Shown piece after piece: positions 55 through 9,816 of a stretch of 10,000 nucleotides of DNA (positions within the stretch are counted from its first letter, which is position 1; every line of letters begins with the position of its first letter). This DNA is from Asticcacaulis sp. (GTDB lineage Bacteria; Pseudomonadota; Alphaproteobacteria; Caulobacterales; Caulobacteraceae), in NCBI RefSeq assembly GCF_020217185.1, contig NZ_JAIWNX010000113.1, forward strand, positions 1-10,000, in the 5' to 3' direction. Under the pieces are notes generated by a model. The model made no database searches, was not told the DNA's origin, and saw only the letters and a program-made list of their open reading frames with translations. A program made the translations under genes and the position numbers.

Positions 55-151
55 AAACGGAACAAATCACCGGGGATTGACGCACACGCCGCAAATTCGC
101 CTCTTACGATACATTCCGAATACGATTACCCGTCGCTGAGGAGTGGGGCAC

Positions 152-1168
152 ATGTCAAATAACAGCACTTTACCGCGAGAGGACTGGCAATTCAGCGGGG
201 ATTCGTTTGAGGGTTTGGCTCAGATTCTGCACCGTTACTGCGATATAACGGCCCAGCAACCCGATCCCGCGCAGCCTTTAAACTGGCGGTTGAATTTATC
301 CTCTATTGAGTCGCGTCACCTCAAGGACCCTGTCTATTTGAAGCTCGCCATGGTGGAAACTACGGCGGACTGGTCCTTTGCGCCCCATACGCCCGGCGAC
401 GACATCATTATGAGCTTTCCTCTGGAAGGCCGCCAAAGCCACACCTTTGCCGATCAGACGGTCGAAATCGGCAAGGGACAGGCCATCATGTACCAGCAGT
501 GTGAGCAACTGCGTCAGTCCTTTATGGCCCACGATCGTGTGGCGCGCTCGGTATCGCTGCGCCTGAGCAATAAATGCGTGCGGCGCATTATTGCGCGGCG
601 CACGGGGCGCTTTGATCGTCTGCGCACCGATTTCCGTCAGGTGATCGAACAGGGCATGCCCGGTTTTGGCCTGATCCCGGCGCTGGTCGGCACGATGTCC
701 GGCCTTGATTCCGAGGCGGTCTTTTCGGTGCTGTCCGAAGAAACGCGCCATGCCCTGATCACCGCCATGGGGGAACTGGTCTTTGATCTGGTGCCCAATG
801 TGATGCGCCGTCACGTGCGCCTGTCCGAAGCGGACGGCGTCCCGCCCTATATCCGCAAGGCCTGCGATTACATCGTCCACCACTATCGCGACGCCCTCAC
901 CATCCGCGAACTGGCCGAACACTGCGCCGTCAGCCTGAGAAAACTCGAACGCGGGTTTGAGCAGAGTCTGAGGATGAGCCCGTCCGCCTTCGTCAAGAAG
1001 GTCCGCCTGGACGCCATCCGGGCCATTCTGACCTCCGGCACCTATCGCGGGACCATCTCGGCGCTGGCGGCGGAGTGCGGTTATTCCAGCCGCCACCGCT
1101 TCCTGAAAGACTATACGGCCCGGTTCGGAGAAACCCCCAAGGAAACCCTGCGCGCGCACAAGCCTTAA
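152..1168 (+). CDS. AraC-family transcriptional regulator
   Basis: A 338-residue DNA-binding transcription factor of the AraC/XylS family, cytoplasmic. The C-terminal ~105 residues (about 232-336) form the double helix-turn-helix domain. The first HTH (TIRELAEHCAVSLRKLERGF, about 250-269) is followed by the recognition-helix region and the family hallmark GYSSRHRFLKDYTARFGETP (about 310-329). The N-terminal ~220 residues resemble the beta-rich sensing/dimerisation domain of AraC-binding-like regulators (MSFPLEGRQ near 87-95, followed by a FADQTVEIGKGQAIMY strand pattern). The length fits the family. I chose ATG 152 because GAGGAG (138-143) lies 8 nt upstream; the in-frame GTG at 143 overlaps that Shine-Dalgarno. 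The ligand and targets cannot be read from the sequence. The closest neighbours on the same strand are the small ORF and Hpt-like gene, about 270 bp downstream beyond a palindromic region. The first ~400 nt look less GC-rich than the 3' half. Confidence 0.93.
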   Translation: MSNNSTLPREDWQFSGDSFEGLAQILHRYCDITAQQPDPAQPLNWRLNLSSIESRHLKDPVYLKLAMVETTADWSFAPHTPGDDIIMSFPLEGRQSHTFADQTVEIGKGQAIMYQQCEQLRQSFMAHDRVARSVSLRLSNKCVRRIIARRTGRFDRLRTDFRQVIEQGMPGFGLIPALVGTMSGLDSEAVFSVLSEETRHALITAMGELVFDLVPNVMRRHVRLSEADGVPPYIRKACDYIVHHYRDALTIRELAEHCAVSLRKLERGFEQSLRMSPSAFVKKVRLDAIRAILTSGTYRGTISALAAECGYSSRHRFLKDYTARFGETPKETLRAHKP

Positions 1169-1184
1169 CCACAGGCCGGGCCTG

Positions 1185-1256
1185 GTGTCCTGAATCTGAA
1201 ATTCGCATGTGCTTGATATCGCTCTCTGGCGAATTTCAGATTCAACAGGACACTAG
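1185..1256. repeat. Palindromic unit 1 (long imperfect hairpin)
   Basis: The left arm is GTGTCC (1185-1190) plus TGAATCTGAAATTCGC (1191-1206). The right arm is GCGAATTTCAGATTCA (1229-1244), a 3-nt bulge (1245-1247) and GGACAC (1248-1253). This makes a 22-bp stem around a 22-nt loop that contains GATATC (1215-1220). It begins 16 nt after the AraC stop. No T-tract follows, so it does not look like a standard intrinsic terminator. The right end is ACTAG, as in unit 2, exactly 90 bp further on. It is probably a REP/MITE-like element or a structured RNA; the function is unknown. Confidence 0.85.
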
Positions 1257-1272
1257 CAAATTATTGTAAATC

Positions 1273-1346
1273 GTATCGTTTTCGAATTTGAAGTTCGCCC
1301 GGCTCTCGATATCAAAATGAAGCGAACTTCAAATTCACGATACTAG
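1273..1346. repeat. Palindromic unit 2, structurally conserved copy of unit 1
   Basis: The left arm is GTATCG (1273-1278), a 5-nt interruption, and GAATTTGAAGTTCGC (1284-1298). The right arm is GCGAACTTCAAATTC (1322-1336), one unpaired base, and CGATAC (1338-1343). The stem has 21 bp, and the 23-nt loop again contains GATATC (1308-1313). Compared with unit 1, four stem pairs differ and each is compensated on the opposite arm, so the pairing is kept while the sequence has drifted. The unit ends in ACTAG (1342-1346). It lies just upstream of the candidate promoter for the next gene pair. Confidence 0.85.
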
Positions 1347-6095: not shown

Positions 6096-6134
6096 GAGAC
6101 TGTCTCATATGAGTCAGTGACATGAGACAGTCTC
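6096..6134. repeat. Hairpin B, nested palindromes
   Basis: GAGACTGTCTCAT (6096-6108) is exactly complementary to ATGAGACAGTCTC (6122-6134) with a 13-nt loop. Each arm is itself palindromic (GAGAC-N-GTCTC), and CTCATATGAG (6104-6113) is a further palindrome, so several alternative folds compete. Function unknown; it is a possible repeat element or protein-binding site. Confidence 0.7.
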
Positions 6135-9664: not shown

Positions 9665-9816
9665 CCCCTCCCCTGATTTGGCTTCGCCGAACTTCGTTTC
9701 AGGGGTGGATTTTGGAGCGAAGCGACAAAAGACGGTGGGGTTAATACCGTAGCTTTAACCCCACCGTCAGTCTCACCTTAGTTCGACTGCCACCTCCCCT
9801 GAAATCAGGGGAGGCT
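9665..9816. repeat. Nested palindromic intergenic repeat between ilvD and DUF4197
   Basis: Outer arms CCTCCCCTGATTT (9667-9679) and AAATCAGGGGAGG (9802-9814) are exactly complementary. Inside lies a 14-bp perfect stem, GACGGTGGGGTTAA (9731-9744) with TTAACCCCACCGTC (9755-9768). Shorter pairs compete: CCCCTGA (9670-9676) with TCAGGGG (9699-9705), GCTTCGC (9681-9687) with GCGAAGC (9717-9723), and CCTCCCCTGA (9793-9802) with TCAGGGGAGG (9805-9814). The last of these could end the ilvD transcript, although no T-tract follows. The overall design resembles REP- or MITE-type elements; no transposase is present. Confidence 0.75.

Follow-up and report, generated by a model that had tools for sequence, protein, structure and literature searches.

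MITEs often outlive their partner transposase, and REPINs consist of two hairpins in inverted orientation, with a bulge and with a tetranucleotide at the base. Insertion of IS630-family elements into TA, with duplication of that TA, is treated in the paper on ISY100, the reference list of which includes the study by Tenzen and Ohtsubo (1991) on TA within 5'-CTAG-3'. Among the intergenic repeats of alphaproteobacteria, the Caulobacter CcrM-associated intergenic repeats (CIR) trace back, as cited in the review by Delihas (PMC2229807), to Chen and Shapiro (2003); the same review gives GANTC as the CcrM methylation site in these bacteria.

The locus described here lies in a window of 10,000 nucleotides, the whole stretch of Asticcacaulis DNA that was analysed. 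We consider it very probable that the locus is a non-autonomous MITE moved in trans by a transposase of the IS630 family (Tc1/mariner type). Its parts, and the gene beside it, are as follows.

1182..1346, + strand: whole mobile element, 165 bp with the terminal CTAGs included, delimited by 10 full own-genome copies, a 37-copy alignment and a covariance-model match over positions 1-165
1182..1256, + strand: hairpin unit U1 (outer arm 1182-1206, loop, inner arm 1229-1256 with a 3-nt bulge, AAC)
1192-1196 (GAATC) and 1239-1243 (GATTC): GANTC sites within hairpin U1
1257..1269, + strand: spacer of 13 nt between U1 and U2
1270..1346, + strand: hairpin unit U2 (inner arm 1270-1298 with a 4-nt bulge, TTTT, loop, outer arm 1322-1346), with no GANTC
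1343..1346, + strand: right terminal CTAG, the target (C)TA(G), which is single in empty sites
143..1168, + strand: gene for an AraC-type regulator (HTH_18, AraC_binding_2), given as context; it ends 14 bp before the element and is not part of it

Architecture and copies of the element

An intact copy follows the plan CTAG-hairpin U1-CTAG-about 13 nt-CTAG-hairpin U2-CTAG, each stem being 25 bp long; in the window copy the CTAG at the left end has decayed to CTGG. U2 is a diverged and inverted copy of U1, the loops and bulges of the two units aligning only after one of them has been reverse-complemented. The outer arms of both units are free of bulges, while the inner arms are bulged: across 89 copies, the bulge measures 3-4 nt in the U1 inner arm of 84 and 3-5 nt in the U2 inner arm of all 89, and only L223 among them has lost the U1 bulge. 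Copy L102 is without both. Units run to 75-77 nt and whole elements to 160-170 bp, with a spacer of exactly 13 nt in 27 of 33 Asticcacaulis copies and 43 of 56 copies from elsewhere. The outer arms of U1 and U2 are on average 75% alike in the 89 copies, in none of which are their first ten bases identical.

A sequence-only reading of the window had already picked out this locus, as two tandem palindromes of about 72 nt with stems of 21-22 bp. The palindromes and their paired hairpins are real, as are the four compensated pair differences that it named (all eight base pairs, four per unit, are present and Watson-Crick), the GATATC in both loops (at 1215 and 1308) and the ACTAG that closes each unit (1252-1256 and 1342-1346, 90 bp apart). 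Its boundaries have had to be redrawn, with a start at 1182, stems of 25 bp and a bulge of 3-4 nt in each inner arm, and what it took for a tandem pair is one 165-bp element whose units are homologous in inverted orientation; because each unit is itself a palindrome, comparing the two directly gives the same arm differences. The statement that no change is uncompensated holds for the pairs that were aligned there and fails outside them, at the stem bases, where G1184-T1254, A1270-G1346 and C1272-T1344 are imperfect.

The window's own genome (G000, Asticcacaulis) gives 29 matches to the element, including 10 full-length copies on different contigs, which answers the question of copy number that the same reading had raised. 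A solo U1 (L018, on contig C64), a solo U2 (L019, on C158) and a fragment on C136 make up the partial copies, and the rest are cross-matches to one half or to the other strand. Copies sit between genes or at gene edges, in either orientation relative to their neighbours, and no ORF of at least 80 aa overlaps 1182-1346. Of the 33 Asticcacaulis copies, 30 have GATATC in one loop or both, and of the 56 copies from other genomes none has it; conservation across the family therefore does not extend to this motif.

A few units depart from the plan. In L017 and L099, the latter a lone U2 without a bulge, the U2 loop runs in the opposite direction to that of the other Asticcacaulis copies, which suggests recombination or flipping between arms. 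L100 (G005:C1:615829-615878 region) is a hybrid unit in which a U2-type outer arm is joined to the loop and inner arm of U1.

Covariation and the upkeep of the arms

Folded as RNA, the element reaches a minimum free energy of -66.7 kcal/mol (z -9.25), a value as good as which was seen in 0 of 200 shuffles; folded as DNA, it has a z of -9.85. In alignment A1, which holds 37 Asticcacaulis copies collected by BLAST and aligned with MAFFT, 97.5% of 1834 cells are standard pairs and 15 of 50 pairs (43 cells) have changed on both sides. None of 500 shuffles reaches any of five measures, and pairing falls to 41% or less when the partner is slid by 1-3 columns. Parsimony on a tree of 89 copies yields 125 double changes that replace one Watson-Crick pair by another, spread over 39 of 48 pairs, alongside 130 one-sided changes and 5 double changes of other kinds; when partners are permuted (200 trials), double changes coincide 12.9 times on average (sd 4.4, maximum 26). 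For the 56 copies from outside Asticcacaulis, 97.5% of cells over the 48 pairs are Watson-Crick.

The A1 result is the cleaner of these, because the other copies came from a covariance model that rewards pairing, and were selected for it, while alignment A3 was fitted to the structure; A1 is free of both effects. A3 comprises the best 150 of 196 matches, with nine lower-scoring loci of 98 left out (L038, L102, L139, L140, L227, L233, L235, L237 and L238). Also left out of A1 or A3 were L017, with its inverted U2 loop, partial copies and, in certain genomes, the second copy. Neither the double-change counts nor the 40:25 wobble count given below includes the pairs at columns 10/108 and 26/82, which lie at bulge or loop edges.

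Covariation of this kind invites an explanation in terms mainly of a structured RNA, in which two transcribed hairpins would stabilise, terminate or process the mRNA of a neighbouring gene and selection on that RNA would keep the pairs. The strength of the fold, the level of pairing among the 37 copies and their placement between genes or at gene edges are all consistent with such a role, and over the 48 pairs wobble cells comprise 40 G-U against 25 A-C. As a strand signal, however, this excess is weak, the copies are not independent, and with the two edge pairs added the count becomes 48 G-U against 68 A-C. The indifference of copies to the orientation of their neighbours also argues against an RNA role, as does the decay of resident copies described below. 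At gathering score Rfam gives no match in the window and, over 12 copy-bearing loci, a single match, to a tRNA; in E-value mode over 1100-1440 it returns only sub-threshold miRNA models and one antisense model (best E 0.034). We regard a mainly RNA-based explanation as improbable.

Near-identical copies differ from one another by 82 one-sided and 20 two-sided stem changes, and this surplus of one-sided change among near relatives indicates that resident copies decay. Nineteen of the inferred double changes fall at the CTAG corners, where the outer copy of the motif is target sequence. Here, movement as a single strand in the manner of IS200/IS605 might be invoked, in which the inner CTAG, by pairing with the target, would serve as guide, such that target and guide would covary, and the unlikeness of left and right hairpins would fit as well. 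Against this stand 22 of the 89 copies in which TA has been lost at one end and kept at the other, since a change at one end with TA retained at the other must post-date insertion, which fits poorly with the choice of a target. Given also ends that match IS630 and no Y1 gene in four Asticcacaulis genomes, we find IS200/IS605-like movement scarcely credible.

In 10 of these 22 copies the inner arm carries the complementary change, and a non-complementary inner partner is found at only 14 of the 148 ends that keep TA. The pattern points to end changes that arose in resident copies and were then transferred from one arm to the other, in the manner of quasipalindrome correction. The bulges persist in nearly all copies, so that such correction would have to be infrequent over the whole stem, or else copies without bulges do not spread. 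For the MITE we propose, complementarity would be kept by selection in the moving lineage and also by occasional arm-templated correction of resident copies, the latter having the support of the mirrored end changes; probably both selection and a copying mechanism act to keep the fold. The earlier suggestion, that selection or a copying mechanism preserves the fold and not the letters, thus finds support in both the covariation and the mirrored end changes.

Insertion sites and IS630-type ends

Four insertions, that in the window among them, are common to the window's genome and a close relative, G005. For nine insertions that the two genomes do not share, the flanks were joined and used to search for the empty site. 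Exact empty sites exist for L016 and L096, with CTAG present once when empty and at both ends when filled, and sites one base off in the target for L014 (CTGG) and L091 (TTAG). A usable empty site was not found for the other five (L009, L010, L015, L017 and L092): the flank of L009 is rearranged, the site of L015 holds another insert, L010 and L092 are unmatched, and L017 adjoins a different repeat, which fills its search. From these empty sites it follows that insertion into CTAG-like targets took place once the two species had separated. TA is present at both ends in 63 of the 89 copies.

The ends themselves resemble those of IS630-family elements. Over the outer 25 nt, the match to IS630-family left ends is 22/25 for L074, L078, L077 and L171 and 20/25 for L075; the IS ends compared with U1 agree at 18-22 of 25 positions, except for the element of G004 (16/25) and that of G005 (L060, 15/25), the IS630 genes of G005 having other ends. 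Complete IS630 elements on plasmids of Acidovorax (L074), Janthinobacterium (L076), Cupriavidus (L078) and Azotobacter (L075) end CTAGTGTCC or CTAGTGTGG, and all four have a second matching end at 1169-1189 bp, that of L078 starting TCAG, not CTAG. The genes of L074 and L075 encode DDE_3 proteins. Genome G126, with at least seven copies of the element, holds the IS with left end L171, on a contig that stops before the right end. The short-query BLAST matches to IS ends have E-values of 2-6 each; the case rests on where they fall, at the IS ends. It counts against this reading that the two ends of one IS are usually more alike than the two outer arms of the element.

An IS630 transposase (PF13358, DDE_3) was not found in the window's own genome, the assembly of which is 95.83% complete and in 320 contigs. 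PF13358 is present in 9 of 25 genus genomes searched, the own genome not among them, and a DDE_3 gene is missing from 10 of 20 other genomes with the element; in all of these the enzyme would be absent, decayed or unassembled. None of the loci examined holds an autonomous element that has U1 at one end and U2 at the other, and an automatic search for end pairs around PF13358 genes brought up mostly a different, TAGAGC-type IS630 group. Because MITEs often outlive their partners, the missing transposase lowers the claim of an IS630-type MITE and does not end it.

In the mechanism we favour, the outer 25-nt arms would be the binding sites of an IS630-family transposase, which would cleave at the TA of the flanking CTAG and place the element in another CTAG, with the TA duplicated. 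The element is an inverted dimer built from a single palindromic unit, in which the inner-arm bulge may shift the inner CTAG 3-5 nt from the transposase binding site; the inner ends would then go unused and the pair travel whole.

The layout of the element, with its two inverted hairpins, bulges and basal tetranucleotides, would also suit a REPIN, in which a RAYT (Y1) transposase moves paired REP hairpins in single-stranded form, and a PF01797 gene is indeed present in 5 of 17 genomes with the element. PF01797 was not found, however, in four Asticcacaulis genomes (the window's own, G005, G019 and G023), with the E. coli and Caulobacter vibrioides controls positive; the units are about 75 nt in length, not 20-40, the tag is CTAG rather than GTAG or CGTC, and the ends match IS630. 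We therefore hold a REPIN to be highly improbable. The sequence-only reading was sound as an observation, and its three interpretive readings are supported in part: a MITE family is borne out by the 10 full copies, the empty sites and the IS630-type ends, while neither a RAYT-moved REPIN nor a structured RNA is favoured by what was found. Nor has the region proved unique, or its pairing lost in relatives.

Several further repeats were noticed. That beside the left flank of L017 is about 115 bp long with ends of the TAGAGC type (the other IS630 group); 37 of 42 flank-search matches in G005 belong to it, which makes it a much more abundant MITE-like family. At L098 650-1000 (G005:C1 about 905478-905553), a U1 without its U2 lies immediately next to the G005 IS630 (L060), at the 26-nt end of the latter, in a tandem insertion where the right CTAG of the U1 is shared with the IS630-family end TAGTGTACTGACACATTCATAGGAT. 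Such sharing implies that the ends are new targets for each other, and insertion of ends into one another is a plausible origin of the dimer. Elsewhere in the window, a 13-bp perfect inverted repeat (GAGACTGTCTCAT ... ATGAGACAGTCTC) at 6096-6134, downstream of a sodium:solute symporter gene, could be either a terminator or another repeat, and a gene-poor stretch holds a 22-nt near-perfect palindrome at 9793-9814 (CCTCCCCTGAAATCAGGGGAGG) and, near 9665, CCCTCCCCTGATTT.

Distribution, GANTC and known repeat families

The covariance-model search that the earlier reading had suggested finds the element in at least 21 of 385 sampled Alphaproteobacteria genomes, the own genome included, from at least 16 families; in at least 50 of 299 Caulobacteraceae genomes, from at least 11 of 22 genera; and in at least 13 of 398 Pseudomonadota genomes, with Alphaproteobacteria accounting for every one of the 13. 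The scans scored 7-9 candidates per genome under strict filters, so that copy and genome counts alike are lower bounds. Most matches span positions 1-165, and some are half elements or are 130-133 bp long. The relatives are patchy across other alphaproteobacteria, with both hairpins kept while the letters change. Searched against plasmids by plain BLAST, and so independently of the model, the element matches only Roseibium/Labrenzia, in seven records with the same two-hairpin plan; one of them (L073) has different stem sequences, in which GTCACCC pairs with GGGTGAC in the U1 stem and GTGTGG with CCACAC in the U2 stem, the bulges again lying in the inner arms. Searches with the element and with the end pattern match Asticcacaulis records, and the nearest genomes share copies. 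An exact 21-nt U1 end is embedded in a 63-bp mini-palindrome in Limobrevibacterium gyesilva (L042, 5260-5322), and another stands alone in a Chloroflexi MAG (L046, about 2884), with no second end within 7 mismatches.

GANTC is present in the U1 outer arm of 73 of the 89 copies (N being A in 35, T in 36 and G in 2) and in U2 of only three (L210, L216 and L221), all three without the U1 site; 13 copies have none. It thus lies mid-stem in one hairpin in 76 of 89 copies, as against loop 1 in none and loop 2 in four. The IS ends L075 and L078 carry GANTC at the same place in hosts that are not known to have CcrM, such that GANTC may simply be a long-standing component of the binding site. By analogy with the gating of IS10 and IS50 by Dam methylation, one might picture a class-wide element in which U1, and not U2, is kept as a CcrM site and transposase binding, and with it jumping, is gated by hemimethylation shortly after replication, with residents repaired through hairpin templating and even the target-site duplication rewritten to match the inner arm; we think this combination rather unlikely. 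Owing to the one-sided GANTC, whether cell-cycle methylation is linked to transposition can be tested directly in Caulobacter-like hosts.

IS630-type MITEs are already known; what the present family adds is a fixed, non-coding two-hairpin plan that spans those 16 or more families. With more than 100 inferred compensated changes, it lends itself well to the study, in nature, of how palindromes are maintained as such, and its target-site duplication provides an internal clock for changes after insertion. It also warns against reading an RNA function into every bacterial intergenic repeat that covaries.

It is possible, if doubtful, that the element has already been described under a different name, chiefly as CIR or as their kin in Brucella and Rhizobium (Bru-RS, RIME). 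No description of the 165-bp family was found in the open-access papers searched, which falls short of proof that none exists. As described in the review by Delihas (PMC2229807), CIR are, like the element, alphaproteobacterial and intergenic, with two stem-loop arms, a linker, terminal TA and GANTC. By that same description, CIR are about 110 bp long with GANTC at a terminal loop, in contrast to 160-170 bp and a mid-stem site here (a few relatives of the element measure 130-133 bp), and no IS630 ends are reported for them there; on these terms, CIR is the nearest published counterpart of the element, and the two may belong to one superfamily. Bru-RS and RIME, too, are alphaproteobacterial intergenic palindromic repeats, Bru-RS being 103-105 bp by the account in PMC2267715 against 165 bp for the element.

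REPINs and REPs share with the element an inverted hairpin pair and a conserved tetranucleotide, but their units, according to the passage in PMC3733652, are of 20-40 bp tagged GTAG or CGTC, whereas the hairpins here are much larger and tagged CTAG. RUP of Streptococcus pneumoniae, an IS630-derived MITE, is likewise small and non-coding, with IS630-family ends and TA insertion; as summarized in PMC2229807, it is 107 bp with 9-bp terminal repeats, while the element has two long unlike hairpins, a fixed spacer and inner-arm bulges. Finally, the complete IS630 elements L074, L075, L076 and L078 have terminal 25 nt that are up to 22/25 identical to those of the element, and differ from it in their length of 1169-1189 bp, their transposase gene and their ends, at which no hairpin unit was noticed.
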